Below are positions 16,899 to 53,376 of a stretch of 64,000 nt of DNA, one piece after another (the stretch's first letter is position 1; every line of letters starts with the position of its first letter). The stretch spans positions 44,956 to 108,955 of the forward strand of contig QCDG01000005.1 of the NCBI GenBank assembly GCA_003280995.1, read 5' to 3'. The notes under the pieces were generated by a model that saw nothing but the letters and a program-made list of their open reading frames with translations, did not search any database and had not been told where the DNA came from. A program made the translations under genes and the position numbers. The stretch is from Prochlorococcus sp. AG-355-A09. GTDB taxonomy: Bacteria; Cyanobacteriota; Cyanobacteriia; PCC-6307; Cyanobiaceae.

Positions 16899-18905
16899 AT
16901 GAATCATTTTTCGACTAGATACAAACCTGAAATTGACGGTCTAAGAGGGTTCGCTGTTATTGCTGTAATAATAAATCATTTTAATAATAATTTACTTTCA
17001 AGTGGTTATTTAGGAGTAGATATCTTTTTTGTGATTTCGGGTTATGTAATTACATCTTCAATCTCTGCCAGAAGCAATAAGAACTTTTTAAACTTTATTT
17101 CAAGTTTTTTCATAAGAAGAATAAAAAGATTACTACCTGCTCTTATTTTTTTTATTTTAATAATGTCTATTTGCATTTGCTTATTTAATCCAGAACCTCG
17201 TTTTTCTCTTAGAACAGGAATTTCTTCTTTATTTGGATTATCAAATTTATATCTAATAAAACAGTCAACAGACTATTTTGGTGAGTTAAGTAAGCTGAAT
17301 ATCTTTACTCATACTTGGTCACTAGGGGTAGAAGAACAATTCTATTTCTTATTTCCTTTTTTAGCATGGCTTTCAGGATTCGCAGAGAAAAAAGAAAAAG
17401 GTTTAAAAAATCTTTTATTTATTACTTTATTTTTAACTATAACTTCATTGATTTTGTATTTTTATTATTCAGTTTCTAATCAATCTATTGCTTATTTCTC
17501 AATGCCTACAAGATTTTGGGAAATATCAATTGGAGTCATACTATATTTATTAATTGAAAAAAATAATTTCTTAATAAAAAAACTAGAAAGTATTTCGCCT
17601 TTTTTTATCTTTGTTGCAATTATATTAATCATGTTTTTACCAAGTAATTATTCTTCATTCTCAACTATTTCAATTGTTACTTTAGTTTCGATATTAATTA
17701 TTTGCTTAAAAAAAGGAACAATTCTATATGAATTATTAACAAAAAAAAATCTTGTATTTGTGGGTTTAATCTCTTACTCTCTTTATCTATGGCATTGGGG
17801 GATTTTAGTTTTAAGCAGATGGACAATAGGAATTCATTGGTGGTCAATTCCTTTTCAAATTACTTTAATTTTTATCTTAGCCTATTTATCTTTTAAATAT
17901 ATTGAAAATCCATTAAGAAAAATCAATTTTTCTAATTCTAATTTTACAAGTATAGTTATTGTTTTTTCTGCTTTATCATCCTCATCATTTTCAATAATAG
18001 GATTAGAGAAATTTTTTAGTACTAAATTTTATCTTGGAGATAAGCAAGTTTTAGAAGCAGTAAAGAAAGGTAATAGTTTATCAGCAGCTTCTAATATTTA
18101 TGAAAATAAAACTTTTGGTGGAGGAAAATGTTATCTTATGCGAAATAAAGATGTTGGCAAATTGATTGATTTTGATCAATGTATATTGGGGGATTTTGAA
18201 AAAGCAGATAGTCGATTATTAATAATTGGAAATTCTTTTTCTTCATCTTTCATTAATTCCTTTAAAGAAGTATTAAAAGATAATAATTCCGTTTTATTAA
18301 CATCTTCTTGGGGGTCATCGCCAGTTCCTAATATTCCTAATAATTCAGATTGGGATCTTGCTAATAAATATTATTGGAATAAATTAATCCCTGAACTTTT
18401 AAAAAAGTTAAAAAAAGGTGATGTAGTGTTCATAATGAGCGCACTTACAGAATTTATTTCAGGAGAAAAAGATTTAGTCTTATTAGAGGAAGGTATAAGA
18501 GATTTCTCTAATAAACTTTCGCAAAATTCTATAAAGCTATTATTTCTTGAAAGCATACCTTTTAATTTTAGGGATAAAAAAGATAATAAATGTGATCCAA
18601 TTAATTCAACAAAAACTTGGTATAATTTTTTGAATGCTTGTGATCCCATATACCAAAGTAAAAAAGATTTTTTAAAGGAAAGGTATGATTTGCATAATAT
18701 GTTAAATAAATTAGAGAATGAGAATCTTTTAGTTACTGTTGATTTATTAGATATCTTTTGTCCAGAAAAAATTTGTACTTTTAGAAATAAAGATGGAACT
18801 TTTTTATATAGAGATATAATTCATCCTTCTTCGAAAGCTGCAGAATTATCTTCAAAAAAAATTAAGCAAAGCTTTGATAAATTAATTAAATCCAGTATAG
18901 ACTAA
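16899..18905 (+). CDS. Acyltransferase 3 with C-terminal SGNH domain
   Basis: YKPEIDGLRGFAVIAVIINHF; FTHTWSLGVEEQFYLLFPFL-type; LIIGNSFSSSF; DIIHPSSKAAEL. Confidence 0.9.
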   Translation: MNHFSTRYKPEIDGLRGFAVIAVIINHFNNNLLSSGYLGVDIFFVISGYVITSSISARSNKNFLNFISSFFIRRIKRLLPALIFFILIMSICICLFNPEPRFSLRTGISSLFGLSNLYLIKQSTDYFGELSKLNIFTHTWSLGVEEQFYFLFPFLAWLSGFAEKKEKGLKNLLFITLFLTITSLILYFYYSVSNQSIAYFSMPTRFWEISIGVILYLLIEKNNFLIKKLESISPFFIFVAIILIMFLPSNYSSFSTISIVTLVSILIICLKKGTILYELLTKKNLVFVGLISYSLYLWHWGILVLSRWTIGIHWWSIPFQITLIFILAYLSFKYIENPLRKINFSNSNFTSIVIVFSALSSSSFSIIGLEKFFSTKFYLGDKQVLEAVKKGNSLSAASNIYENKTFGGGKCYLMRNKDVGKLIDFDQCILGDFEKADSRLLIIGNSFSSSFINSFKEVLKDNNSVLLTSSWGSSPVPNIPNNSDWDLANKYYWNKLIPELLKKLKKGDVVFIMSALTEFISGEKDLVLLEEGIRDFSNKLSQNSIKLLFLESIPFNFRDKKDNKCDPINSTKTWYNFLNACDPIYQSKKDFLKERYDLHNMLNKLENENLLVTVDLLDIFCPEKICTFRNKDGTFLYRDIIHPSSKAAELSSKKIKQSFDKLIKSSID

Positions 18906-20228: not shown

Positions 20229-22226
20229 TTATTTTATTGTAAATAAAGATGGATTATCTTCAGCAAATTTATAAAATATTTTTTTTGCATATTGAGCTGT
20301 AAAGTGACTCTTATCATTATATTTTGATGCTAAGCAAATATCATCTTTACAATCTTCTGCATATAAATATGCATTAAAAACAAACTTATTTATATTATTA
20401 CTCCAATCTGCTCTCCAACCAAAATATTCATCAAATTTATAAATATGATTAGAAAGTGAATTCTTGCACTTATCAGGGATATTATTTTTAGACCTAAACC
20501 ATTCAGGCCCACATAAATGACCTGGAATATTTAAATCAGGGAAAAATAAAGAATCTATATAAAAAACTACTTTACCTCCTTGTTTATTAACTTTTGATGA
20601 AAAATCTAAGAACCTTTGTTTATAAATTTCTAATTCTTTTCTTTTATTTAGCCTTTCACTTTGAATTTCAGAGTACTCCTTAGAGCTTTCTTTTGTATAA
20701 ATTAAATTGTTCAAAGCATTTCCAACAATTACTATATCACCAGGTTTTATAGATGATATTATTATGCTTTGTAATTTTGTTTGATTTTTATAACAGGATG
20801 ATTTATTTGAAGTTAATATTGAACTTGGGAACAAGCAACCTGCCTGCCAAGCGATAGCATAATTATAGTTTTTTTCATATGCAAATTCAGCAATTGCATT
20901 ATCAAACTGGTCAATATGACTATCACCAATTCCAAAAATAGTTGGTAAATTTTTTGCATCCAAACTACCACATTCAGATGGTAACTTTTTTGGCCTTTTG
21001 TTTTTATCAAAAATGGTAGGTAAATGACAGGTTTTATATTGTCTTAAAGTATATAAAGGTTCTTTACCAACATATAAATATCCTTTGAAAGGCTTACCTA
21101 AAAGAAAAATAATTCCTGAGATAGAAAAAAGTGTTGCTCCGCTAATTATCCAATTTTTAAGTCTCAAATTGTCCCAATTAGATTTACGAAAAGGGGTTTC
21201 TATAAATTTATATGAAAATAGAGAAATTATTAATATTAATAAAACTTGAAATGGAATAGTCCACCAATATATTCCTATTGTCCATCTACTAATAACCAAA
21301 ACACCCCAATGCCATAAATAAAGTGAATAAGATAATTTACCTAAATAAATTAATATAGGATTAGTAAGAATTTTGTAAGTGGTAGTTTCTTTTTTTAATG
21401 AAACAATTAGTATAGAGGAAATTATTACTATTGCAATTGTAGAAAATCCAGAACTAGATACTGGTAAAAAAACAGTAGCAATAACGAGAGATGATGTTAA
21501 TAAAGAAGGAATTTTTTTGAGGAATTCAATTAACCTTATATTTTTTTGCATTCCTAAAAAAATCAAACATCCTGAAGATATTTCCCAAAATCTTGCAGGC
21601 ATAAGGAAATAAGAAAATGATTGATTTATAGGATAAAAATGTATAAATAAAATTAAAGAAGAAATTGTTAAGACAATAATAGAGATAAATAAATTACGAA
21701 AACTATTTTTGGCTTGACTTCCAAAGCCTGAAAACCAAATTAAAAAAGGGAACAAAAGGTAAAATTGTTCCTCAACTGCAAGAGACCAGGTATGAGTAAA
21801 AGAATTGAATTCAGGATATAAAGTAAAGTAACCTACATCTAAATTGTATAGATATAAATTTGATAATCCAAATAATGAGCTTAATCCAGTTTTTAAAGAA
21901 TTACCAGGGGATTGACTAAATACAGAAATCAAAATACTAGTAAATAGTACAAAAAATAATAATGCTGGTAATATTCTTTTTATTCTTCTTTCATAAAAAG
22001 ATATTATAAAATTTTTAAAATTATTAGTAGGTCTCTTGAATAAGGATGATGTAATTACATATCCCGAAATAACAAAAAATATATCTACTCCAAGATAACC
22101 ACTTGGAATTATTTCTTTATTAAAATGATTCGTGATTACAAATATAACTGCTAGAGCTCTTAAACCGTCTAACTCTGGCCTATATTTAAAAAATATGTTT
22201 TTTTCTTCACTAATTTTCATAAGCAA
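20229..22226 (-). CDS. Acyltransferase 3 with C-terminal SGNH domain
   Basis: YRPELDGLRALAVIFVITNHF; FTHTWSLAVEEQFYLLFPFL; IFGIGDSHIDQ; DKSHFTAQYAKK. Confidence 0.92.
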   Translation of the reverse strand: MLMKISEEKNIFFKYRPELDGLRALAVIFVITNHFNKEIIPSGYLGVDIFFVISGYVITSSLFKRPTNNFKNFIISFYERRIKRILPALLFFVLFTSILISVFSQSPGNSLKTGLSSLFGLSNLYLYNLDVGYFTLYPEFNSFTHTWSLAVEEQFYLLFPFLIWFSGFGSQAKNSFRNLFISIIVLTISSLILFIHFYPINQSFSYFLMPARFWEISSGCLIFLGMQKNIRLIEFLKKIPSLLTSSLVIATVFLPVSSSGFSTIAIVIISSILIVSLKKETTTYKILTNPILIYLGKLSYSLYLWHWGVLVISRWTIGIYWWTIPFQVLLILIISLFSYKFIETPFRKSNWDNLRLKNWIISGATLFSISGIIFLLGKPFKGYLYVGKEPLYTLRQYKTCHLPTIFDKNKRPKKLPSECGSLDAKNLPTIFGIGDSHIDQFDNAIAEFAYEKNYNYAIAWQAGCLFPSSILTSNKSSCYKNQTKLQSIIISSIKPGDIVIVGNALNNLIYTKESSKEYSEIQSERLNKRKELEIYKQRFLDFSSKVNKQGGKVVFYIDSLFFPDLNIPGHLCGPEWFRSKNNIPDKCKNSLSNHIYKFDEYFGWRADWSNNINKFVFNAYLYAEDCKDDICLASKYNDKSHFTAQYAKKIFYKFAEDNPSLFTIK

Positions 22227-25852: not shown

Positions 25853-25876
25853 AATTAAATTAAATTAAATTAAATT
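25853..25876. repeat. Pentanucleotide tandem repeat (TAAAT)4 plus flanks
   Basis: attaaattaaattaaattaaat read directly; perfect units at 25856-25875; overlaps GT11 stop codon. Confidence 0.85.
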
Positions 25877-26805
25877 TCTATAAATCCCTTTGAATTTAGC
25901 CAACCTTTTTCAAAAGCAGATATATTTTTTTTAATCCATTGGGGAATGATGCACCTTAGTTTACTATCTACATTTTCATTATTTAAAAGAGCCGCACTAT
26001 AGGAAAAACTACTATTTGCGCATATATTTATTGAAGAATGTCTCAATATTGACCAGTCTTCTAGACTATTTTGGGTTTCTAAAGGAAAAAATTTATATCC
26101 TAATTTTCCTGAGAGAAGAAAAACTAAATCATTTGCCCATTTTTTATCATCTGAGATTAAATATATTGGCTTTGATTTATTTTCTTCAGGTAATAAGTGA
26201 AGAGAAAGTAGAATAAATTCAATGGGTGAATAATTCGTATTATAATTTTCAAAATTTTCTTTTAATAAATAGTCACCTCTCCTAACATGAATTGTTATGT
26301 AAGTATTGGGGGAAATTTTAGAAGGAATAAACCTTTTTGTATCAACTATAAGATTATTGTAGAAGTCTAAATTATCTAAATAACTGTATGGATTTTGCCA
26401 ATATCCTTTTATTTTCAATTTACTAAAACCTTTCTTTAGAAAATTTAAATCTTTTTTTAGGGTGCTTAAAGAATCTTCAGATTTTCTACTTTTCTCATAA
26501 TATAAACAATTCAATAGATCTAGACTTGATTTAAAGCGGCATTTAATATTTTTACTTAAAAGTGGCATATTATTGATAACTTTTGAGTAAATTCTTTCAC
26601 CTTTTTGATCATATTCTTTACTAATAATTATTGGTTCTTTTATTAATTCGTTTATGTCTAAATTTCTATATCCACTTTTAATTGACTCTGAAGACGCATA
26701 TTTAATTTTTAAATTACTAAAATTTTGTGAAATATATTTTGATGCAAAATATTGAAATATTTGATTACCAAGTCCACCATCAAAAATGAATTGAATTTCT
26801 TTCAT
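25870..26805 (-). CDS. GT11 family alpha-1,2-fucosyltransferase-like
   Basis: FIFDGGLGNQIFQYFASKYI; YITIHVRRGDYLL; ICANSSFSYSAALLN. Confidence 0.9.
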   Translation of the reverse strand: MKEIQFIFDGGLGNQIFQYFASKYISQNFSNLKIKYASSESIKSGYRNLDINELIKEPIIISKEYDQKGERIYSKVINNMPLLSKNIKCRFKSSLDLLNCLYYEKSRKSEDSLSTLKKDLNFLKKGFSKLKIKGYWQNPYSYLDNLDFYNNLIVDTKRFIPSKISPNTYITIHVRRGDYLLKENFENYNTNYSPIEFILLSLHLLPEENKSKPIYLISDDKKWANDLVFLLSGKLGYKFFPLETQNSLEDWSILRHSSINICANSSFSYSAALLNNENVDSKLRCIIPQWIKKNISAFEKGWLNSKGFIEI

Positions 26806-28745: not shown

Positions 28746-30104
28746 TTAGATTTTTTTCTCCAATTCAAAAATTTGAGTTATCTTTGAAAAGATTCTTTTG
28801 GTATCAATTACTTCATCATTATCAAATATATTATCACTTTTCTCACCTAAGGTTAATAATATTCCATTAGGTGAGTGATACCCAGTTCCTTTTTGAAATA
28901 TTCCATCTTCAAATCCCAGATCATAAAAACTGACTTTTTTATCTTTATAAATTAAATGTTTTTGTTTTAGGTCATTTGTTCCATAAATAAAATTTACTTT
29001 ATTTAAATCGTTTCTATATCGCACGGAAAATAAACTCTTGTTGTTTAAATCTTTTATTTCCAAAAACTTTATTATTAAGTTATCTATGTTTTTTTTTGAA
29101 TGACTTTCTATATTTATGTCTGGATACATAGAAGGTAAGACTGTGTATAAATTATCATCTAATCCCAGGAAATTAAAAATTTTTTTGAAGTCTTTTATAA
29201 ATATTCTTTCAAAGTCTTTTCTCTCTATTGCCTCCTGACCCATGCTGCTCGCAATCCACAATTGATAAGAATTCTCTTTTGCAAATTTCATCAAAGTCCC
29301 TATTTGTTCATCAGCTATGTCTAATGCTTTTATAATTGAATTTTTGTTAAAAGGGTTTGGTTTTCTGTAAGGATTATTAAAATCCATTGGAAATATGTCT
29401 AGCCAATAATAGTGCATCATTCCAGCAAGATGGTTTGTGAAAAAGGTTACAAATTCAGGACTTTGTTTTTTAAGACTTTTAAAAAAAAGATCAAATGATA
29501 ATTCTGGTTGAAGAAGAGATCTTCTTTGTTTGAATTTTTTTTTAATTTTCTCTAATACGAGCTGTCTTAAAACTTTTACAAAGGAATTTTTACTAATAGA
29601 GGAATTTAATATACATTCTAGGAAATATAAAATTTCGATAAATTTTATCGATCTTATTTTGCCTGAATTTTTAGAAACTAGCCTTAAATTAAATTTCTGA
29701 AATTTTTCAAAAGTTTTTGGGTAAGCTTTATAGTCTGGTGAGAAAGTATCTGGCAAATAAAATTTAACTTTTTCACCTGATAATGGGGGATAACTTTGAA
29801 GACTTCCAAAGATTCCTATGCTTATATTATTTTTAATTAAAAATTTCCATATAGGTGGGTATTCTTTTTCACATTCTATATTTTGGTTTAGAGATGTAAT
29901 GCCATGTAATGTGTTATCAACCCCTCTATAAAATGTTGGCCAAGTTGTCCATGGATGGAGTTCTCCTTTATCAGTAGTAAAGGTATTTAAGTCCTTTCCA
30001 TGTTTTTTAAACTTTGATAAGTTTGAATTTGGTTTTAAAGTTATATAGTAATCTAATAATTTCCTTGGAAGTTCATTTAACTCATATATTATTAACTTAT
30101 TCAC
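28746..30104 (-). CDS. Alkaline-phosphatase-superfamily (type I phosphodiesterase-like) protein, divergent metal site
   Basis: YELNELPRKLL, HPWTTWPTFYRGVDNTLHG, TNHLAGMMHYYW, ASSMGQEAIER, GTGYHSPNGILL. Confidence 0.7.
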   Translation of the reverse strand: MNKLIIYELNELPRKLLDYYITLKPNSNLSKFKKHGKDLNTFTTDKGELHPWTTWPTFYRGVDNTLHGITSLNQNIECEKEYPPIWKFLIKNNISIGIFGSLQSYPPLSGEKVKFYLPDTFSPDYKAYPKTFEKFQKFNLRLVSKNSGKIRSIKFIEILYFLECILNSSISKNSFVKVLRQLVLEKIKKKFKQRRSLLQPELSFDLFFKSLKKQSPEFVTFFTNHLAGMMHYYWLDIFPMDFNNPYRKPNPFNKNSIIKALDIADEQIGTLMKFAKENSYQLWIASSMGQEAIERKDFERIFIKDFKKIFNFLGLDDNLYTVLPSMYPDINIESHSKKNIDNLIIKFLEIKDLNNKSLFSVRYRNDLNKVNFIYGTNDLKQKHLIYKDKKVSFYDLGFEDGIFQKGTGYHSPNGILLTLGEKSDNIFDNDEVIDTKRIFSKITQIFELEKKI

Positions 30105-30176: not shown

Positions 30177-31262
30177 TTATATTAAGATCATATTAATAAT
30201 TATTTTTGCGTAATTACTGTATCGATATTTATTAGCTTCATCGGAATTTAGGAACTTATATATATTTTTTCTATATTCTTTTTTTTGTTGTTCAGTAAGA
30301 CTTTGAAGTTTTTCTACAATTTCTTTACCAGATGTTTTCTCGTAGATTTTTATATAAGCATTACTTGGAATATTTTTAGATAAGTCTTGTCCGTAATAAA
30401 CAGGAATCGAACCCGAAATCATAGGATCAAATATTTTTTCACAAATAGAATTGAACTTGCTTACTGTTGGTTCAATTGCAAGTGCAAAATCATAATTTTC
30501 TAATGTTTTTTCTTTTGATTTAGCTACTGGAAATTTTCCTAAAGGCTTATAATTTATTTTCATAATATTTTTTACTAATTTTTTTAAAAAAGAGTTCCTT
30601 AATATAATCGCGATTCCAATAATATCGAAAGGTAAAGGTACTTTATCCCATCCATAACCATAAAGTTTAAAAAAATTCTTGTATTTTAATAGATCTTTTA
30701 CCAATTTATATCTGAATTTATAGGAACCATGATTGCTTAAGGCAATTTTGAAAGAACTAATGAATACTAATTTGTTTTTTCGTTTTGAATTTAAAATTAT
30801 TGATTTCTGGGATTTAATTTTCTCTTTGGAAGGGACTGATGGATATGAAAAATTTTTAGTTTTATAACTCATAAATTTATTGATATTTTCTTCGCAATTT
30901 ATCAAAATTTCATTAAATAAAAACGGTATCCTAAGCATATATCTTGCTCTGCCAAGAAATGTCTCATTTACAATAAGAATAGTAGATATTCTTTTTTTGT
31001 ATATATTTGCATAAAGTACTTTTATTAAATCATTTAATCGAGGTATTTCAACAAAGATAATTTTGTCATATTTTGCATGCTGTTTTGAATTATATTGCCT
31101 TAAATTTATTTTATTTTTTTTACTTTGCCTAAAAACTTCTTTCCATGCTTTATTCCAATTTTGATATATTTTTAATTTATTATCTGGTTTTATATATTGA
31201 TCAAAATTATAATATGATATTATACCCACTTCTATTTTTCTTGTAGTTTTATTTTCGAACAT
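30177..31262 (-). CDS. GT10 family fucosyltransferase-like
   Basis: YDFALAIEPTVSKFNSICEKIFDPMISGSIPVYYGQDLSKNIPSNAYIKI matches the GT10 core pattern. Confidence 0.82.
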   Translation of the reverse strand: MFENKTTRKIEVGIISYYNFDQYIKPDNKLKIYQNWNKAWKEVFRQSKKNKINLRQYNSKQHAKYDKIIFVEIPRLNDLIKVLYANIYKKRISTILIVNETFLGRARYMLRIPFLFNEILINCEENINKFMSYKTKNFSYPSVPSKEKIKSQKSIILNSKRKNKLVFISSFKIALSNHGSYKFRYKLVKDLLKYKNFFKLYGYGWDKVPLPFDIIGIAIILRNSFLKKLVKNIMKINYKPLGKFPVAKSKEKTLENYDFALAIEPTVSKFNSICEKIFDPMISGSIPVYYGQDLSKNIPSNAYIKIYEKTSGKEIVEKLQSLTEQQKKEYRKNIYKFLNSDEANKYRYSNYAKIIINMILI

Positions 31263-31273
31263 TTTTCTTAAAA

Positions 31274-31753
31274 TTAATCAGAATTTTTTAAATAATTTTT
31301 TATAAAAAATAATTGGTTATTTCTAGGATTTGTATATTTATGCACTTTTTTTACATAATCTAAAGCATCTTCTATTTCTAAATTATATTTTTCCATAACA
31401 AACATTATACAAAGTAAAGGAGATCTTTCTATTGATGCAAAACAGTGCACAAAAGTCGTACTTTTATTTACAAAATCTTTTAGAGTTAAATAAGCAATAG
31501 CTATTTGATTTTTAGAAGGTAATATTTTTTGGTTAGAGTCAGGTAATATAAATCTATTACAACAGAAACAATCTTTTAAGTCTTTATGCCATTTTGACTC
31601 TTCTTCACTACATAAGCCTAATATATTTTTTACTTTATTTTTCTTAAGAAAATTAATATCTTCTTTTTGAGTTGGAGTTGTTCCGATTGCTAATTTATTT
31701 TTTAAAACCCAATTAAAAATAAAAATTTCTTTTAAGTTTTTATTCTCATTCAT
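31274..31753 (-). CDS. Dual-specificity / tyrosine phosphatase-like protein
   Basis: FVHCFASIERSPLLCIMFVME = HCx5R signature. Confidence 0.8.
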   Translation of the reverse strand: MNENKNLKEIFIFNWVLKNKLAIGTTPTQKEDINFLKKNKVKNILGLCSEEESKWHKDLKDCFCCNRFILPDSNQKILPSKNQIAIAYLTLKDFVNKSTTFVHCFASIERSPLLCIMFVMEKYNLEIEDALDYVKKVHKYTNPRNNQLFFIKNYLKNSD

Positions 31754-34085
31754 CTAGCCAGTTTTTGAATTTGTTTAGGATAAATTTTGTTTTTTCTAGG
31801 AGTGTTTTATTTTTAATAAACTTCTCAAAAATATTATTTTCTGAATCTATTTTATTGTCTGTATCTAAATATCTATTTTGTGTTTCTTCAGGCATATATT
31901 TATAGGAGTAATAGTTATATTGGCTTCCGTAGGAATAATATTTATTTGAAAATGGGTTTTTAGAATTTATATCTTTGGAAACTGAATTAATAATTGCACC
32001 AATAATTGGCTTTTTAATTAATGAATATTTTCGCAAGCATTCCACTGCAAGTTGCTTATTAACTTTATTTAAACTTATTGTTAATATTGAGGCATCAACA
32101 TAATTTGAAATTATTAGAGCATCTGATAAACCAAGTATTGGAGGACAGTCTAGAATTATAAAATCATATTCTTCTGAATTTCTTAATTCTTCTATAAAAG
32201 ATTGCATTTTATCTGATTCTAATAATGTAATTGAGTTGGGGGGGATTTTGCCAGCAGTCATATAATATAAATTCTCACAAGAATTATGCTTGATGATATA
32301 TTTACGCCAATTTGAATCACTACTGACTAGATAGTTTGATATTCCCATGACATTATCTACTTCCATTCTCTTATGAAGTGAAGGTTTTCTTAAATCAGTA
32401 TCTATGATTAAAACTTTTTTTGAAATTTGAGAAATATTCATACCTAAAAATAAAGAGCAAAGTGATTTACCTTCTTCAGGAACAGAACTAGATATATTAA
32501 TGATTTTGATATCTTTGCCTGATTTTGAAAATTTAATTGAAGTATAAATATTTCTAAAAGTTTCTTCAAAAATGAATTTTAAATTTTTAAAACTTTGGTT
32601 TTTTTCATTTTCTAGAAAATCACTTATTTTCAGAGTAACTTTTTCATCTTCATCATAATTATCGCTAGCACTTAAGCTGAAAAATGGAACAAAACCTAAT
32701 ATTGGCAATTCAATAAATTTCTCAACTTCTTTCGGATTATGAAAAACATCATCAAGTTTTTCTATTAGATAAGTTACTAATGAAGCAAAACTAAGAGTAA
32801 GTAAAATTATATAAATAAGATTCTTTCTTATTTCTGGTTTTATAGGATATGGGTTTACAAAGGGATCTACAATTATTTTCCAAGGTAAATTGCCTTGAGA
32901 TAGATTAAGCTCTAATTCATCTTTAGTTTCATTTAAAGATTGCAAATTTTTCTCTAATGCATTTAACTCTTGGCGGATTTCTTGGAATTCGGTAACTTTT
33001 GAGGGAATTGGAATGAATTTTTTCTTAAGTTCAATCAACTGATTTTTTGAAGATTCAATTTGACTATTATTGACAATAACTGCGGCATCAACAGCTAACT
33101 TTTGATTTTTAAGCAAAATAGGCTCAAGTTGAGTTAGTTTTTCCTCTAGATTTCTTATAAAAGTTGATGATTTTTTATATTTAGATTGGGCATTAGCAAG
33201 TTGGGATTTTACTTTAAGTATTTCCTGTAATAATAATTGGTCAGAACCAATTATTCCTAGATCTGATGAGTTTTGATTGCCTCCGGGGGAGGCAATACCT
33301 TGTGTATATAAAATTCCATTAACTAGATTTCTTTTTATAAATAATAATCTTTTGTTTTCAGAATTCAGAGATAAGATTTTATCCTCATGAAATTTAATTG
33401 AACTTGTTATTTTTTGGCCTTCATTAATTGGATTAAGAATGTTATTTTCCGACCTAAAAATTTCTAATTTATTTTGAGCAGTTTTAACTTTCGATATAAG
33501 CTTTGGTCTTTCTTTTTCTAGAAACTTAATACCTTCTGATAACTTTTCATTTCTCGATTCGGAGGCATTAATAACATATTGTTTACTGAGATCTTCAAGG
33601 ATATTTTGCATTCTAAATCTATCTTTCCCATCAAAAGTAACTAAAAGAGTTTTACTTAGATAAGCACCCAGAGTCCCCCTGTCTCTTGGAATTGTAATAT
33701 TTATTCTATTCCTCAAAGATGACGGAGAAATATTATTTTTATTTGCAATATCAGCAACTACTCCAGGACTTTTTAAATATTGAACTAGTGTAGGGATATC
33801 TAAAACTTCTCTATTTAGAGCTAAGTCTTCAATTCCTTTATTTTGTGTTCTATTGTTTAGAAAGGGATCACTTATCATTAACGTGAAAGATCCTCTGTAA
33901 ATAGGATCTTTTATTCTTCTATAAATTAAATTTGAAAAGGAAATAAAGAAAAATGTAAAAGTTAAAAGCAAAAATATTTTTTTGCGCCTTAACAAGATTT
34001 CCAAAATAGATGGAAAATTAAATTGTTCACCTTGGTTAATGGGTTCTTCTTCTATAAATTTTTCCTTATCAATATATTCTGCCAA
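31746..34085 (-). CDS. wzc: Wzc-like polysaccharide co-polymerase / BY-kinase
   Basis: Wzz-like N-term; ISSSVPEEGKSL (Walker A); VLIIDTDLRKPSLHKR (Walker A'); FIILDCPPILGLSDA (Walker B); tyrosine-rich tail NKYYSYGSQYNYYSYKYMPEETQNRYLD. Confidence 0.92.
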   Translation of the reverse strand: MAEYIDKEKFIEEEPINQGEQFNFPSILEILLRRKKIFLLLTFTFFFISFSNLIYRRIKDPIYRGSFTLMISDPFLNNRTQNKGIEDLALNREVLDIPTLVQYLKSPGVVADIANKNNISPSSLRNRINITIPRDRGTLGAYLSKTLLVTFDGKDRFRMQNILEDLSKQYVINASESRNEKLSEGIKFLEKERPKLISKVKTAQNKLEIFRSENNILNPINEGQKITSSIKFHEDKILSLNSENKRLLFIKRNLVNGILYTQGIASPGGNQNSSDLGIIGSDQLLLQEILKVKSQLANAQSKYKKSSTFIRNLEEKLTQLEPILLKNQKLAVDAAVIVNNSQIESSKNQLIELKKKFIPIPSKVTEFQEIRQELNALEKNLQSLNETKDELELNLSQGNLPWKIIVDPFVNPYPIKPEIRKNLIYIILLTLSFASLVTYLIEKLDDVFHNPKEVEKFIELPILGFVPFFSLSASDNYDEDEKVTLKISDFLENEKNQSFKNLKFIFEETFRNIYTSIKFSKSGKDIKIINISSSVPEEGKSLCSLFLGMNISQISKKVLIIDTDLRKPSLHKRMEVDNVMGISNYLVSSDSNWRKYIIKHNSCENLYYMTAGKIPPNSITLLESDKMQSFIEELRNSEEYDFIILDCPPILGLSDALIISNYVDASILTISLNKVNKQLAVECLRKYSLIKKPIIGAIINSVSKDINSKNPFSNKYYSYGSQYNYYSYKYMPEETQNRYLDTDNKIDSENNIFEKFIKNKTLLEKTKFILNKFKNWLDE

Positions 34086-34162: not shown

Positions 34163-35263
34163 ATGAAATATAGAGTAAAAAAGTTTTTAACATTTGTTTT
34201 ACCCTTTTTTATAGGCACCAATTTAATTTCTTCAATTGTTATAGCTTCAAACAATTTAATTGAAAAAGAAAATAAAGATATACGAGAAATTAATAGTCTT
34301 ATTCTAGATAAAGATCTTTATATTTTAGGTCCTGGAGATGTTTTGAAAATTAAATTTGTTGGAATTGACGAGCTCTCAGGAACTTTTTTTATAATGAGAG
34401 ATGGAAATATCCAACTTCCATTGCTAGGGACAAAAAATATTAATGGCCTAACACTTGATGGTGCAAAAAAAAGATTAATAGAATTGTACAGTGATGATCT
34501 TATTAGGCCAGAAATTGATTTAACTTTGCTCGAAGCACGTCCTATTAGAATTTCTTTGATAGGAGAAGTTCAAAGACCAGGTTCATATACTTTTAATAAA
34601 ACTGAAAATAGCAGAGTTTTAGGATCTGAAGCCTCTGGGACTTCAATAAGCGGATATAAAACAGTTGTAGATGCGATACAAAAAGCAGGTGGACTTACTT
34701 TTGATGCGGACATTACTAAAGTGGTGCTTTATAGAAAGTTGCCTGGAGAGAAGGTCGAATATAAAAAAACAAATCTTGATTTACTTGAAATGATAAGAAC
34801 AGGTGATCAAGTTAATAATCCTATTTTATTTGATGGTGATTCAATAAAAGTCGATAAATATGTAACTCAAGTAAATAAATTAGAAAAAATACCAAATAAT
34901 CTGACTCCTGAGACAATCAAAATACATGTGATAGGGGAAGTTGAATCTCCAGGGATGTATCAAATTGATGCTAGAAGTCAAATAAGTCAGGCAATCTTGA
35001 TTGCTGGCGGACCTAAGGATTGGAGATATAAAGATAAAATACAATTATTAAGGGTGAATAGAAATGGTTCGGTAAAAGTAAAAAAAATTTCATTTAATAA
35101 ACAAGGTTTATCAAGGAAAAGTGATGGTATCTCACTAAGAAATGGAGATATTATTAGGGTCAAAAAGAACTTTTTTGGTAAATCAACGGATGCTTTAGGG
35201 ACATTTTTACCACCCATAAGGGATATTTATTCTTTATATGGGGTATACAAACTTATTGAGTAG
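34163..35263 (+). CDS. wza: Wza-like polysaccharide export protein (Poly_export + SLBB)
   Basis: YILGPGDVLKIKFVG; RDGNIQLPLLGTKNINGLTLDGA; two SLBB-like segments (ISLIGEVQRPGSYTF, IHVIGEVESPGMYQI). Confidence 0.92.
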   Translation: MKYRVKKFLTFVLPFFIGTNLISSIVIASNNLIEKENKDIREINSLILDKDLYILGPGDVLKIKFVGIDELSGTFFIMRDGNIQLPLLGTKNINGLTLDGAKKRLIELYSDDLIRPEIDLTLLEARPIRISLIGEVQRPGSYTFNKTENSRVLGSEASGTSISGYKTVVDAIQKAGGLTFDADITKVVLYRKLPGEKVEYKKTNLDLLEMIRTGDQVNNPILFDGDSIKVDKYVTQVNKLEKIPNNLTPETIKIHVIGEVESPGMYQIDARSQISQAILIAGGPKDWRYKDKIQLLRVNRNGSVKVKKISFNKQGLSRKSDGISLRNGDIIRVKKNFFGKSTDALGTFLPPIRDIYSLYGVYKLIE

Positions 35264-35315
35264 TTAATTAAAGAAAAGTGTGTTATCATAAATAAAATTT
35301 GAGAAATTAAATTTT

Positions 35316-35915
35316 TTGATAAAGTTTGCTGCCAAATTTTTAATAATTCCGTTTTTATTTCTAAATGCGACAGCTGCTGATGCAGCACTTTACAAATACG
35401 TTTTTGCTTCCTCAAACTATGTTGATCAAGAAGACCCTGACGTACCAGGAACATTAACTGGTTTCATAGTGATTGACACAAACTTGGCTGCTGCTGACAA
35501 TACTAGATATCAAAATGGTCAAAATGGTGAATTTGATATACCAAATTGGATAACTGAAGCATCACTCACATTTACTCCAGATGGAGGAAGCTCTGTACCT
35601 GCAGAAACAAGAACTCTAACATCTGCTGAGCCTCTCGATGAATTACGTTGGAAACCAACCAGTGGATTTGATCCTACACAAGAGTTCGTAGGTCAAATGA
35701 CAAGATTTAGTTTGTCTAATGGTAATACATTTACTTCAAGTAGTTCAATGATCCAACAGTTTGGATTTCAAGGAGAAAGTCAATTTGAAGAAGGTGAGTT
35801 TTTACTGTCCTCTCCTGCTAATTCAGTTCCAGTTCCGGGTCCTTTACCACTTCTTGGTCTAGCACCTTTTGCCTTTTATTTTCATAAGCTTAAAAAAAAG
35901 TTTAAGAAAAATTAG
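35316..35915 (+). CDS. Secreted PEP-CTERM-type protein, putative exosortase substrate
   Basis: N-terminal signal peptide ending ATAADA/ALYKY; C-terminal VPVPGPLPLLGLAPFAFYFHKLKKKFKKN (motif, TM, basic tail); TTG start. Confidence 0.85.
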   Translation: MIKFAAKFLIIPFLFLNATAADAALYKYVFASSNYVDQEDPDVPGTLTGFIVIDTNLAAADNTRYQNGQNGEFDIPNWITEASLTFTPDGGSSVPAETRTLTSAEPLDELRWKPTSGFDPTQEFVGQMTRFSLSNGNTFTSSSSMIQQFGFQGESQFEEGEFLLSSPANSVPVPGPLPLLGLAPFAFYFHKLKKKFKKN

Positions 35916-35940
35916 TTAGTAAATATTAAATAGCTCTTTC

Positions 35941-36600
35941 ATGTTTGAATCAAAATTTATTTTTGTAGGAAAAATTTTCTTACTTGCTTTTTTGGTTATT
36001 AATTTCCCCCCTTTTTTTCCAATAAGATTATTTGAAGTTTCTTACTTTTTTGTTATTACTACAACTATATTTGATACAGCAAGTTTATTAGTATTGTCTC
36101 TTGCAATATCTAAATATATTCATGCAAAAAATTTGAAATTAGTAGAGAATTTTAATACTCAAAATGATATAAATTGTAGGTCTTTGGATAATATTAATCT
36201 TCATGAAAATCATATTAAAAATGATAATAAAATATCATTAATATTTGCGATAATGTTTGCTTTTCTTACTTTATTGCAACCTTTATTACTTACTTTTTCA
36301 GTTAATAAAAGTGATATATACGCTTCTAATATATTGAACTCAATAAATGAAGAATTTAAAAATCAAAAGAAGGGAATTGAGGAATTAGTGATTAAAGGAA
36401 ATTCAAATGAAATAAAAAAAATTGAAAAAGATAAAGTAGATGATAGAATTTCACAATTAACAAGAATAAAGGATAGAAATATTCAAAACTTTTTAAATAA
36501 AAATAATAGAAATAAGTTTGAAAATGTAAAAATTATTGTTAGAAATATAATGCTAGGTATCCTTTGGACACTTTGTTTTATTAAGATCTATAAAATTTAA
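35941..36600 (+). CDS. HpsJ-like, exosortase-associated membrane protein
   Basis: 2+2 TM layout with basic/coiled loop (EEFKNQKKGIEELVIKG...DDRISQLTRIKDRN); placed between PEP-CTERM gene and exosortase. Confidence 0.6.
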   Translation: MFESKFIFVGKIFLLAFLVINFPPFFPIRLFEVSYFFVITTTIFDTASLLVLSLAISKYIHAKNLKLVENFNTQNDINCRSLDNINLHENHIKNDNKISLIFAIMFAFLTLLQPLLLTFSVNKSDIYASNILNSINEEFKNQKKGIEELVIKGNSNEIKKIEKDKVDDRISQLTRIKDRNIQNFLNKNNRNKFENVKIIVRNIMLGILWTLCFIKIYKI

Positions 36601-36626
36601 ATACTTCAATTTTTAATATAAAAAGT

Positions 36627-37436
36627 ATGAATTATCCGAAATTTATATTAGTTACATTTATATTCTTAAATATTTATCTTTTATATATATTTAGAACTCC
36701 TATTTTTGATCAGATAATAAATTTAATGATTACCTATGGTGTCTTTAATTTTTATAATGAAAACAATTTTAATGAAGATGATAATATAAGTAGGCTTCAA
36801 ATTTTTATTAGTATTTTTTTACTAATTTGTATATTTTATAGATCATTATGGTTGCATAGTGGAGATAATTTTATTTATTTATTATTTACATTGCTTCTGA
36901 TAATACTTTTAATGCTCACTAAGAATATTAAAAATATACTTAGTAATATAGAATCCATTAAAATTGCTTTAATTTTTCCTTTAACCAAAATTTTATTTAT
37001 ACCTTTAGCAGTAATTATTAACCCTTTTTCGACTTTATTTACATGGCTTTCATTAAATGCCTTTGGTTTTAATTCTATAATTAATGGTCAAGAAATTTTC
37101 TATAACAACTCAGGTATAAATGTAACTTTTAGTTGTAGTGGCGCTGGACAAATAATATTTTGCTTTAGCGGAATGATTATATTAAATTTTTACTTACCTT
37201 TGAAAAATAGAAGATTACTTCTTATTCAGTTATGTCGTGCTTTTTTATTCACCTTTTTTGCAAATATACTCAGACTTTTCCTTTTAACAATATATGTTCA
37301 TACAGCTAATTCTGATGGATTTTCTATATTTGACTATTTGCACGGGGGCAATGGAGGTTTATTTTTCAGTTTTTTCTCAATGTTAATAAGTTGTGAATCG
37401 TATAAAAGATTATATATAAGGGGTTTAAGGATATGA
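36627..37436 (+). CDS. Exosortase/archaeosortase family protein (cyanoexosortase-like)
   Basis: Polytopic; Cys motif VTFSCSGAGQI, Arg motif FFANILRLFLL, His motif FDYLHGGNGGLFFS in canonical order. Confidence 0.85.
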   Translation: MNYPKFILVTFIFLNIYLLYIFRTPIFDQIINLMITYGVFNFYNENNFNEDDNISRLQIFISIFLLICIFYRSLWLHSGDNFIYLLFTLLLIILLMLTKNIKNILSNIESIKIALIFPLTKILFIPLAVIINPFSTLFTWLSLNAFGFNSIINGQEIFYNNSGINVTFSCSGAGQIIFCFSGMIILNFYLPLKNRRLLLIQLCRAFLFTFFANILRLFLLTIYVHTANSDGFSIFDYLHGGNGGLFFSFFSMLISCESYKRLYIRGLRI

Positions 37437-38041
37437 TTCAAATTTATAAAAAAAGATACTTTACATATATGTTATTAATAACTATTTTTTGGTTCATAAA
37501 TTTTTTTTATAAACCACAGCCTAAATTAAGCAAAATAATCTTGAAAAATCAATATACTGACTTATTAGATAAAAATAATTCAGAAATTGAATTAGTCTCT
37601 AATGATAATAGAGTAAATATAGGAAAACCTTATTATTTGATAAATAAAACTGATTGGTATCAAATAAATTTATTGTCATTTTGGAGAAAAGAATATTTAG
37701 ATTTAGCATTATTAGATAAAAGATTAAAGTTTGAAGATATAAAAATTGAAATTCGAGATAAAAATAATTATGCTCAAGGATTTTACAACAATAGGAAAAT
37801 TGTATATGCCTGTGTAAATAATCCTAAGGATTTTTTCTATAAGTTTGACCACAACAATGTTCGGTCAACATCAAATTTTAATTATTGGAAGAAAGTATTT
37901 ATAAATAATGTAAAATTTACTTTCAATTTTTTTAAACCAATTAATTATCAATGTTTACTTGTTATTACATCTGACATCGATTTGTTTGAAAAGGGTGAGA
38001 AAGAAATAAATGAAAAGATTTTTGGAAAATTTATTTTTTAG
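37433..38041 (+). CDS. Exosortase-associated accessory protein
   Basis: Starts 4 nt before the exosortase stop; one N-terminal TM; KIVYACVNNPKD and INYQCLLVITS resemble cyanoexosortase-A-associated proteins. Confidence 0.65.
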   Translation: MIQIYKKRYFTYMLLITIFWFINFFYKPQPKLSKIILKNQYTDLLDKNNSEIELVSNDNRVNIGKPYYLINKTDWYQINLLSFWRKEYLDLALLDKRLKFEDIKIEIRDKNNYAQGFYNNRKIVYACVNNPKDFFYKFDHNNVRSTSNFNYWKKVFINNVKFTFNFFKPINYQCLLVITSDIDLFEKGEKEINEKIFGKFIF

Positions 38042-39167: not shown

Positions 39168-40160
39168 ATGAGTGCAGGCTTAGATATTGCCATTTTAAAT
39201 ATAATATTTTGCTTAATATTTTCATATTCTATTGGTCCATATATAAATTCAATTGGTTATAAATTTAATATAATTGATATCCCGGATTTAAGAAAGGTCC
39301 ATAAAAAACCAATCGTCAGAATAGGAGGATTATCTATATTTATAACTTTCTTTTTATATTTGTTTTTTGCTAATTTATTTATAAATTTTGATAGTTTTGA
39401 TGGTGATATTTTAAATAAGTTTTATATATTTCTAATAGGTGCTTTTTTATTTTTTTTAATAGGTATTCATGATGATATTTATAAATCTTCTCCTTTAATA
39501 AGATTATTTTTTCAATTTTTAGTTGCTTTTTTTGTATCTTTTAATGGTATTAACTTTAGCTCTATTTATCTCCCAATTCCTTTTTTTGGGCAAATTAATT
39601 TTGAATCATATCCTTTTTTAAACTATTTCTTTTCTGCATTTTGGATTGTGGGAATGACTAATGCAATAAATTGGATAGATGGTATTGATGCTTTGGCTGG
39701 AGGTTTTTGTTCAATACTTTCTTTTGGATTATTTTTATTAATGTTATTAAATGGTAATTCAATTGGTATAATTTTTTATTCAATTCTTCTTGGATCTATT
39801 ATTGGTTTTTTAATTAGAAACTTTAAACCTGCTTTTTATATAATGGGTGATTGTGGTTCTAATTTTTTAGGTTACTCCCTTTCTTCAAGCGTATTATTAT
39901 TTTTGTTAGATCCAGATTATAGATTTGCAAATATTTTTTATATATTTTTGATTTTTTCTTTACCAATGTGCGATATGGTTTTTGTTATTTTAGAGAGATT
40001 ATTTAATAAGCAAAATATTTTTCTTCCCGATAAAAATCACATTCATCACAAACTTATGAATCTAAATTTTAAATATAAATATATAATATTATTGTTATTT
40101 TCTTTTTCTTCATTTACTACTATTCTTGGGATATTTTATTTTCAGAAAAATAACTTTTGA
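39168..40160 (+). CDS. WecA/MraY-like polyprenyl-phosphate sugar-phosphate transferase
   Basis: DLRKVHKKPIVRIGGLSIFI; GMTNAINWIDGIDALAGG; MGDCGSNFLGYSL; KNHIHHKLM. Confidence 0.92.
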   Translation: MSAGLDIAILNIIFCLIFSYSIGPYINSIGYKFNIIDIPDLRKVHKKPIVRIGGLSIFITFFLYLFFANLFINFDSFDGDILNKFYIFLIGAFLFFLIGIHDDIYKSSPLIRLFFQFLVAFFVSFNGINFSSIYLPIPFFGQINFESYPFLNYFFSAFWIVGMTNAINWIDGIDALAGGFCSILSFGLFLLMLLNGNSIGIIFYSILLGSIIGFLIRNFKPAFYIMGDCGSNFLGYSLSSSVLLFLLDPDYRFANIFYIFLIFSLPMCDMVFVILERLFNKQNIFLPDKNHIHHKLMNLNFKYKYIILLLFSFSSFTTILGIFYFQKNNF

Positions 40161-41404: not shown

Positions 41405-42526
41405 CTATTCTTTTGAACTGTAAATATTAAAACCTTTTTTTCTTAAAATTGATTCTTTTCTAGATTGTTCAGAATCTTCTTTAATCATTTCAGAGATTAG
41501 TTCTTCTATTGATATCTTTGGTTGCCAATTTAGTTTCTTTCTGGCTTTGGATGAATCTCCCAGAAGTTCATCAACTTCAGTGGGCCTAAAATATCTACTA
41601 TCAATTCTTATAACAATCTCTCCAGTGTCACTCCTTTTGCCAACTTCATTTATACCTTCACCTTCCCAAAATATACCTTTACTTCCTTTTTTATCACTCC
41701 ATCCTAATTTATTCGCACATAACTCTATGAATTCTCTAACACTATGCATCTTGCCTGTGGAAATTACAAAGTCCTCAGGTTTTTCTTGCTGAAGCATTAA
41801 CCATTGCATGTAAACATAATCTTTAGCATGCCCCCAATCACGTTTGGAATTAAGATTTCCCAAATATATACATTTTTCTAAACCATAATGAATTCGGCAA
41901 AGACCTCTTGTAATTTTTCTCGTGACAAATGTTTCACCTCTTCTTGGACTCTCATGATTAAAAAGAATTCCATTACAGGCGTACATATCATATGCTTCTC
42001 GATAGTTGACGATGATCCAATATGCATATAGTTTTGCTACTGCATAGGGACTTCTAGGATAAAAAGGTGTTGTTTCTTTTTGAGGAGATTCTTGTATAAG
42101 GCCATATAGCTCACTAGTGCTGGCTTGATATATTTTGGTTTTCTTTGTAAGATTTAAAATTTTTACTGCCTCTAAGATTCTTAAAACACCAATTGCATCG
42201 CAATTAGCAGTGTACTCTGGCGTCTCAAAACTAACTGCTACATGACTTTGAGCTCCAAGATTATAAATTTCATCTGGTTTTATTTTTTCAATGATTTTTA
42301 AGATATTTGTACTGTCAATTAAATCTCCATAATGAAGAAAAAATTTATTTTTATCCTCATGAGGGTCCTGATAAAGTTTATCTATACGAGATGTATTGAA
42401 GGAACTTGATCTTCTTTTGATTCCATGAACTTCATAACCTTTATCTAAAAGTAGTTCTGCCAAATAACTACCATCTTGTCCAGTAATGCCAGTAATTAGT
42501 GCTTTTTTGTTAATTATTTTAGTCAT
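41405..42526 (-). CDS. gmd: GDP-mannose 4,6-dehydratase
   Basis: [79 protein letters not shown]. Confidence 0.97.
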
Positions 42527-50936: not shown

Positions 50937-51006
50937 AAAATATTTTCATAAATATTTTAAAATAAATTCAAATGCTAAAATAAATTCAAACAAAAATATT
51001 TTCATG
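50937..51006. repeat. Short nested direct repeats upstream of GT-C gene
   Basis: TAAAATAAATTCAAA twice about 18 nt apart; AAAATATTTTCAT at both ends, the second abutting the ATG. Confidence 0.7.
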
Positions 51007-53376
51007 AGAATTATTAATAGTGATGAAAAAAATATAAATCATCTGATAAATATTTTATCTTGTGTCTCATTCTTATCATTCTTATTTATAATTTTTCATC
51101 ACACTTTTTTGATTTTTAGCTTTACTGAAGGTTGGTATTCAAGTTGGGCTTCTACAAATACTTTTTCTGAACTTTATTCTTCAGGTTTCCCGTTCCCCCC
51201 TATTTACATAACTTTTTACAAATTAGTTTTAAATTTAATAGATTTTTTTTCAATAGATCGTTACTTTGGACTTCGCATTGTTGGGGGATTCATATCTTTA
51301 ATAAATCTCTGGATTATATTTAGAATTGCAAAAAATTTAGGAAGTAAAACAAACTTTTCTTTATTAATTTCAAGTTGCTCTCTGATTATATTCAGTTCAA
51401 TGGAAGCGTTTGTTATTTATGACTATACCCCTTTCTTAGGAATCATAATAAGTTCATTGGCATTGATAATTACTGAAAAAGAAAGGAAAATTTACTTTCT
51501 AAGAATTAATTTATTTCCTTATTTAAGAAATATTTTTACTTCATTATTATTAATAGCTTTAATAGGATCAAAACAAAGCGCAATTCCTATAGCTATATTA
51601 TTTATTTTGGTTTATGGTTTAACAAGAAGAAAGAAATTAGAAAGGATAAATTTTTTATCTACGATATTACTCTTTTTAGTCCTTTATATACTTTATTTTG
51701 TAAATAACATTGGTTATGAACAATTTTTAGATATTTATACAAATGCAGAATACAAAGGCGGAGCAGACAAAATAATTAAAAGGCTACCAAAAATACTTGT
51801 TTCATCTTCTTTAAAACTTAATCCAGGATTGCTTTTTAGAATTGTAAGAGAATCAATTATTTTCTTAATAGTTTTTTTGCCCGTGGGAATTACCTCTTTA
51901 AATATTTTTAAAATATTTAAAAGCAAGAGATATTTGTTAATTATTTTGATAAGTTCCTTTCTTACAGTATTTGGATTATTTCTAATCCCACAAGCCACTA
52001 ATGATATGACTGCTATAGTTAGAACTATTAGGGAATCGGGTGTTGGATTTTTAATATTTTCAATTCTACTGGGATTATCAACTTTCATATTTTATCCAAG
52101 TTTAGAAAACTATAAAAAGAAACTTATCCTTTTGCTTCTAACTTTTCTTTCTAGCATTATCTTAACTAATGTCATGTCAGGCGGTACAGGAGCTTTTGAT
52201 AGCTTTTTGATAATTCCAGTTTTTGCTATTCTGATTTATAAATTAATAGATGAATTGAAAATATATGAAAACTCTGATCAATTAATAAAAACAAAAAAAA
52301 TAATTTTCTCAATATTTGGTAGAGTTTTTAATTTTCATGATTATAAGAATTTTGAATACCTTTTCAAGAAAGCATATTTTATAATCATAAAAATTTTAAA
52401 ACTGTTATTTTCTGGAATAATTGCTTGCATTTCTTTTGCAGGTATGGCGGATATCTATGCTAAAGGATATACATGGTGGGGAATGGTTGAGAAAAGCGAT
52501 AATGCATTCCTTTTTGACAAATTAATATTTTTCAAGAAACCAACCAGAAATAAAATTCCAGGATCATTTTTTATGTCATATGATCAAAGAATGTATACTG
52601 ATAGAAGCCTTCAAATAATAAATAATTATTCAAACAGTAATAATATTTTAGCTTTTCCAAATATACCTTACTTTTATGAAGCTTCTTCTAAAGATTCATT
52701 TGCAGGAACACCTCTAAATTGGATAGATGTTACAAGTTCAAAATCTTCTGAAATGCAAAAAAATGAATGGAATCAAAATAAACCAGAGATAATTATTTTT
52801 AACTTTATGCATTCGGATGTTTATAATATTCAGGCCAGGGCATTTAGTAATGAAAAACTAGGTGAACATTCTTTTAAATACATAAATTCTAATATTTTAG
52901 ATGAAATAATAAACGGTAAATATATTATTTTAGATTCCTATCTTGCTTCAGATACTGGATATGGATTATTTACTCTTGTAAGAAAAGATATTTTTGAAAA
53001 AAATAATTCTAAATCAAATATTGATTATTCAAAAAAACAATTTGATATTATAAAAACTAAATTAGAAATTAATGCAGATATTTTAAAAAAGGGTTTTCCT
53101 TATTCAACAATTGTATGCATGGATAAAAATGAAAATTATGCAAAAGAATTACATCTAGATTTATTTAAAAAAAATAATATAGATTGTAAAAACTCTAGTC
53201 GAGTTAATCTTTCAGATAAAAAACTTTTTAAAGATGAATATTCTTTCAATATGATTGAAAAGAAAACTATTGAAATATCTGAAAGAAATAATTTATATAT
53301 AGAAAGCTTAAAAGATAATGAATTCGCCAACAATGTAGTTGTTTTCACATATTTATTCTCTTTGTTCAATTATTAA
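51004..53376 (+). CDS. GT-C type membrane glycosyltransferase-like protein
   Basis: N-terminal polytopic domain with TEGWYSSW and SGFPFPPIYITFYK; ~300 aa C-terminal soluble part. Confidence 0.65.
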   Translation: MRIINSDEKNINHLINILSCVSFLSFLFIIFHHTFLIFSFTEGWYSSWASTNTFSELYSSGFPFPPIYITFYKLVLNLIDFFSIDRYFGLRIVGGFISLINLWIIFRIAKNLGSKTNFSLLISSCSLIIFSSMEAFVIYDYTPFLGIIISSLALIITEKERKIYFLRINLFPYLRNIFTSLLLIALIGSKQSAIPIAILFILVYGLTRRKKLERINFLSTILLFLVLYILYFVNNIGYEQFLDIYTNAEYKGGADKIIKRLPKILVSSSLKLNPGLLFRIVRESIIFLIVFLPVGITSLNIFKIFKSKRYLLIILISSFLTVFGLFLIPQATNDMTAIVRTIRESGVGFLIFSILLGLSTFIFYPSLENYKKKLILLLLTFLSSIILTNVMSGGTGAFDSFLIIPVFAILIYKLIDELKIYENSDQLIKTKKIIFSIFGRVFNFHDYKNFEYLFKKAYFIIIKILKLLFSGIIACISFAGMADIYAKGYTWWGMVEKSDNAFLFDKLIFFKKPTRNKIPGSFFMSYDQRMYTDRSLQIINNYSNSNNILAFPNIPYFYEASSKDSFAGTPLNWIDVTSSKSSEMQKNEWNQNKPEIIIFNFMHSDVYNIQARAFSNEKLGEHSFKYINSNILDEIINGKYIILDSYLASDTGYGLFTLVRKDIFEKNNSKSNIDYSKKQFDIIKTKLEINADILKKGFPYSTIVCMDKNENYAKELHLDLFKKNNIDCKNSSRVNLSDKKLFKDEYSFNMIEKKTIEISERNNLYIESLKDNEFANNVVVFTYLFSLFNY

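Follow-up and report, generated by a model that had tools for sequence, protein, structure and literature searches.

The exosortase CrtB of Nostoc punctiforme and its associated protein are encoded in a polysaccharide-export locus together with a Wza-type protein, and this one enzyme serves 35 PEP-CTERM proteins (PMC12188702). Deletion of crtB leads to the loss of cell-associated polysaccharide, adhesion, biofilm and motility, and the authors proposed that PEP-CTERM proteins link polysaccharide to the cell surface (PMC12188702). Dedicated sorting systems, as described in the 2011 rhombosortase paper, comprise one enzyme and one target, and near-adjacent genes for the two are typical of such single-target systems (PMC3237569). 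The EpsH motifs are ordered C-x-G, N-x-x-R and H-x-x-x-G (PMC1569441), and work on archaeosortase has proposed that the active-site Cys forms a thioester, which a lipid amine then resolves (PMC7157517). Here we describe a four-gene module beside wza in a 64,000-nucleotide stretch of DNA (hereafter the window) from Prochlorococcus sp. AG-355-A09 (contig QCDG01000005.1 of a 1.5-Mb draft genome in 28 contigs, 91.6% complete), which encodes a putatively secreted protein with a sorting tail, an HpsJ-like membrane protein, an exosortase and an accessory protein. Our favored interpretation, in which we place good confidence, is that the locus is a dedicated cyanoexosortase-A-like exosortase system, whose one Sec-exported substrate would be cleaved near a PGP motif and would then help to hold Wza-exported polysaccharide.

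Set beside the described systems, the module is an unusually compact exosortase system of an already known type. It resembles the Nostoc locus in combining an exosortase and an associated protein with Wza-type export, but has one target where the Nostoc enzyme has 35. Because the genome contains one exosortase and one detectable tail, we regard the module as a dedicated system; enzyme and target are likewise encoded by neighboring genes, although the worked examples in PMC3237569 are rhombosortase pairs, whereas here the enzyme is an exosortase and an HpsJ-like gene lies between target and enzyme. The best named-class match to the enzyme is CrtA (cyanoexosortase A, TIGR03763), and three CrtA loci from Cyanobiaceae (L046, L047 and L015; TIGR03763, NF050013) share with the window the order HpsJ-like gene, exosortase and associated ORF (open reading frame), with genes that abut or overlap by 4 nt. 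Unlike the CrtA class, the window module falls below class cutoffs, resides in a reduced genome, has one substrate encoded directly upstream and lacks a match to TIGR04153. A first-pass annotation of the window had noted no known functional description of such a system in this group. In the open-access literature, we found no paper on a system of this kind, or on any exosortase or PEP-CTERM protein, from Prochlorococcus; co-mentions of the terms appear incidental from titles and counts.

The exosortase and its putative target

The exosortase matched PF09721 with an E-value of 4.2e-13 (49.7 bits versus a cutoff of 25.7) and was also over the cutoff of the generic NCBI exosortase/archaeosortase signature TIGR04178 (28.9 versus 23). 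Its CSG, NILR and HGG motifs begin at residues 170, 213 and 239, in the same order as the EpsH motifs, and C170, G172, N213, R216, H239 and G243 are invariant across five sequences, comprising the window enzyme and those of four Prochlorococcus relatives that are 24-37% identical to it. Because of the strength of the PF09721 match and the invariance of the motif residues in four divergent relatives, the match is not attributable to chance, and the sequence evidence firmly identifies a real, divergent exosortase, as the first-pass annotation had predicted from the motifs. It is the only exosortase in the window genome, each of the four relatives likewise has a single one, and across a survey of 267 Prochlorococcus genomes the enzyme was found in five (three of the 87 near-complete ones).

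The proposed substrate contains a putative signal peptide (hydrophobic residues 8-26), an ectodomain of ~150 residues and a C-terminal sorting tail, and inspection of the sequence and alignment revealed the tripartite tail layout of motif, hydrophobic stretch and basic C-terminus in addition to the N-terminal signal peptide. Across the five genomes, the substrates form one homologous family with 21-36% identity and conserved tails, in which the tail motif is PGP, PAP or PGG, not PEP. A strict VPVPGP tail pattern had a single match in the window genome and none in a reversed control. A profile built from six tails recovered the window tail with an E-value of 1e-16 (1.6e-9 when this tail was left out of the profile) and identified exactly one tail in each of the five module genomes (E-values 1e-13 to 2e-21; next match, 0.17), two of which are 99-100% complete. 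Pattern and profile thus agree on a single detectable target per enzyme in all five genomes, as had been proposed for the window from its one visible substrate. A degenerate DNA tail pattern returned the module tail plus a few non-tail matches in each genome; these were rejected as sorting tails: one falls within a conserved protein (PAAIPVIG), another within a long protein encoded by the relative AG-321-E21, and the remainder in short frames that encode no secreted protein.

It is quite unlikely that the one-target picture reflects a detection limit, with further substrates carrying tails too unlike the profile. The known tail itself escapes the curated PEP-CTERM models, such that PF07589 is not informative for finding tails of this kind, and the window genome is only 91.6% complete, but exactly one tail was recovered in five of five genomes, including one that is 100% complete. 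Moreover, leave-one-out profiles recovered every held-out tail (weakest E-value, 0.0014), and the near adjacency of enzyme and target is typical of single-target systems (PMC3237569).

Putative partner proteins and phylogenetic placement

The HpsJ-like protein owes its assignment to relatives. A profile of the five Prochlorococcus sequences matches the HpsJ-like proteins of L046 and L047 at 1e-13, and these two themselves score below cutoff against HpsJ_like_A and HpsJ_fam. Among the five family members themselves, HpsJ_fam is matched by three (best E-value, 8.7e-6) and HpsJ_like_A by two (best, 2.6e-6); the window copy has no direct match to HpsJ models, and no member reaches the cutoff of NF038305 (HpsJ; best E-value, 8.7e-6). 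Together, these profile matches support homology of the window protein to the HpsJ family, upholding the label it had been given in the first-pass annotation.

The gene overlapping the exosortase gene had been listed as accessory in the first-pass annotation. In each of 18 loci from Cyanobiaceae, the exosortase gene is followed by an ORF of 218-258 amino acids whose start coincides with the end of that gene or lies right next to it, and 12 of these loci show the 4-nt overlap seen in the window. Profile comparison (hhalign) of the window and AG-321-E21 accessory proteins with these downstream ORFs gave a P value of 7e-4 over 204 columns, versus 0.83-0.99 for three control profiles. Because hhalign itself assigns a low probability (10.7%), the case depends to a large extent on gene position, the overlap and two cysteines. 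These residues of the accessory protein, C127 and C174 (codons 37811-37813 and 37952-37954), occur in all 20 aligned sequences, which hints at a disulfide in the periplasm or an active role common to these proteins. These lines of evidence support a relationship to the ORF that follows exosortases across the Cyanobiaceae. Membership in the named partner family was not supported, as TIGR04153 (cyanoexosortase A system-associated protein) matched nothing at E ≤ 10 in the window genome and nothing in ten further genomes.

A tree of 41 exosortases places the five Prochlorococcus enzymes in a single clade (97/96), which groups with the CrtA-like enzymes of L015, L046 and L047 (96/100). Because branches are long and composition differs, this placement with CrtA-like enzymes is provisional. 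The enzyme scores 47.8 bits against TIGR03763, below the class cutoff of 150, and 30.3 against the narrower subfamily model TIGR02602, below its cutoff of 105.55. We consider it unlikely, though worth stating, that the Prochlorococcus enzymes constitute a distinct subclass outside the named classes, with a P-G/A-P/G-L-P motif in place of PEP, one co-evolving target and a conserved HpsJ-like partner, in which the target becomes covalently attached to polysaccharide of the capsule or lipid of the outer membrane; if true, no smaller natural exosortase system would be known from cyanobacteria.

Distribution and proposed role of the module

Profiles for the substrate (E-value 5e-67 or better) and the HpsJ-like protein (1.4e-80 or better) hit the same five genomes as the enzyme, with only noise elsewhere. 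The tail protein is therefore conserved where the enzyme is, as expected of a substrate, although the coincidence of the three families is not independent evidence, since their genes are adjacent. The order substrate, HpsJ-like gene, exosortase is kept in all five loci, in line with the synteny check proposed at the outset, and all five modules are near wza. In the wider family Cyanobiaceae, exosortases were found in 70 of 400 genomes. Two of the same-genus relatives, AG-321-E21 and AG-355-J23, were recovered by an alignment-based contig search, while a contig search with a single window protein as query found no relative; we take the style of these two names to be typical of single-cell genomes. 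Neighboring sugar-nucleotide genes are 50-80% identical among relatives, implying that the module either diverged unusually fast or moves as capsule-locus alleles. The rarity of the module and the absence of the accessory gene from three of five loci had both escaped the first-pass annotation. In AG-321-E21, an acyltransferase-like membrane gene (L040:11150-12088) lies between wza and the substrate gene. A mobile or viral origin of the module was considered and rejected: no exosortase relative was found in viral contigs, and the window contains no tRNA.

Divergence of this extent might also indicate a module that is decaying or inactive in reduced genomes, and the TTG start of the substrate gene, the long branches of the enzyme and the missing accessory gene in three genomes would fit such a state. 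We nevertheless regard decay as very improbable, given that all ORFs are open in five of five genomes and that the catalytic motif residues remained invariant though most of the sequence changed, which argues for purifying selection on function.

In the dedicated system that we favor, the substrate would leave the cytoplasm by the Sec route and stay anchored in the inner membrane through its C-terminal helix and basic end. The exosortase would then cut at or near the PGP motif by its Cys/Arg/His set, probably via a thioester, and the new C-terminus would be passed to an acceptor by transpeptidation, or the protein released. The enzyme would work with the HpsJ-like protein as a partner and, in loci that encode it, with the accessory protein. 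Finally, we infer that the processed protein may reach the outer surface and help to tether Wza-exported polysaccharide to the cell, a capsule-linking role carried over by analogy from Nostoc CrtB. The first-pass annotation had proposed that one surface protein may be anchored or glycosylated during polysaccharide export.

Several results weigh against this interpretation. Every named exosortase class model was missed by a wide margin, and the PGP tail matches no curated PEP-CTERM model (NCBIfam, PF07589). The AlphaFold model of the exosortase contains several hydrophobic helices but is weak (pLDDT 62, pTM 0.56), and a fold search against the Protein Data Bank (PDB) gave no meaningful match; the substrate model is poor (pLDDT 46), and no sequence relative with a solved structure was found. 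The accessory gene is present only in the window and AG-321-E21. Finally, Wza occurs in 146 of the surveyed genomes and the exosortase in five. The module is thus absent from most Prochlorococcus capsule loci, to which it is a rare addition, and is not needed for capsule export itself. The prevalence of capsule loci lacking it also favors a different role, in which the module processes one protein for release or periplasmic use instead of capsule tethering, its position merely marking where modules persist in a variable island. We judge this rather unlikely, considering that all five modules are near wza and that deletion of crtB in Nostoc costs the cell its attached polysaccharide (PMC12188702).

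Two questions about exosortases, which acceptor they use and how their targets cross the outer membrane, are hard to address in cyanobacteria, where one enzyme serves dozens of targets (35 in N. punctiforme, PMC12188702). With its one target, the four-gene module makes both testable via a single tagged protein. It also indicates that a protein-sorting system survives, albeit rarely, among the most reduced free-living phototrophs, within a polysaccharide locus that shapes the cell surface.

Gene layout and the surrounding polysaccharide region

All five ORFs of the co-directional run headed by wza were confirmed at the coordinates and strand given in the first-pass annotation, including the 4-nt overlap of exosortase and accessory genes (Table 1). 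That annotation had embedded the module in a Wza/Wzc capsule-export region; the module does lie beside wza, but wzc is transcribed divergently, leaving the module on the wza side of the pair. The Wza-like protein also matches TIGR03028 (EpsE; 3.6e-26) and TIGR03027 (1.9e-20), each below cutoff. A WecA-like gene adjoins the module in genome G518 as well. G+C content is 37% in the substrate gene and 21-23% in the HpsJ-like, exosortase and accessory genes, and a scan for promoters and terminators performed no better than on shuffled sequences.

Table 1 Features of the exosortase module and its immediate context (window positions)
Feature	Position	Strand	Evidence or remark
Wzc-like chain-length protein / tyrosine autokinase (context)	31746..34085	-	TIGR01007 9.3e-40, over cutoff
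Wza-like outer-membrane polysaccharide export protein; heads co-directional run	34163..35263	+	PF02563 (Poly_export) 1.4e-14, PF10531 (SLBB) 1.4e-20
Putative exosortase substrate (tail protein)	35316..35915	+	TTG start; family co-distributed with enzyme
Sorting tail PGPLPLLGLAPFAFYFHKLKKKFKKN with motif, hydrophobic stretch and basic end	35835..35912	+	
HpsJ-like membrane protein	35941..36600	+	Family assignment via relatives
Exosortase, divergent, CrtA-like	36627..37436	+	PF09721 and TIGR04178 over cutoff
Cys170 codon, putative nucleophile (C-x-G)	37134..37136	+	Invariant in alignment
N-I-L-R codons 213-216; Asn213 and Arg216 of N-x-x-R	37263..37274	+	Invariant in alignment
H-G-G-N-G codons 239-243; His239 and Gly243 of H-x-x-x-G	37341..37355	+	Invariant in alignment
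Exosortase-associated (accessory) protein	37433..38041	+	4-nt overlap with exosortase gene; profile comparison
WecA-like glycosyltransferase family 4 (context)	39168..40160	+	PF00953 9.4e-28

A dual-specificity-phosphatase-like protein (31274-31753, minus strand) is encoded by a gene overlapping wzc. Related genes are found close to wza/wzc elsewhere in Prochlorococcus and close to exosortase genes in further Cyanobiaceae. An exosortase-specific role was rejected, as the phosphatase occurs in 36 of the 267 genus genomes, mostly without an exosortase, and for the same reason it probably pairs with the Wzc kinase.

Other genes hint at the chemistry of the polymer. A sulfotransferase family protein (PF03567, 2659-3483) in the same region suggests a sulfated polymer, and two acyltransferase-SGNH fusion proteins on opposite strands (16899-18905 and 20229-22226) are likely involved in polysaccharide O-acylation. 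Fucosyltransferase-like genes (GT10, GT11) and a sugar-nucleotide dehydratase-like gene ~80% identical in relatives (30177-31262, 25870-26805 and 41405-42526) give a hint of fucose in the polymer. Three further ORFs, of 790 (51004-53376), 634 (13585-15489) and 452 amino acids (28746-30104), have no Pfam match; the AG-321-E21 capsule locus contains a 41% homolog of the last of these.
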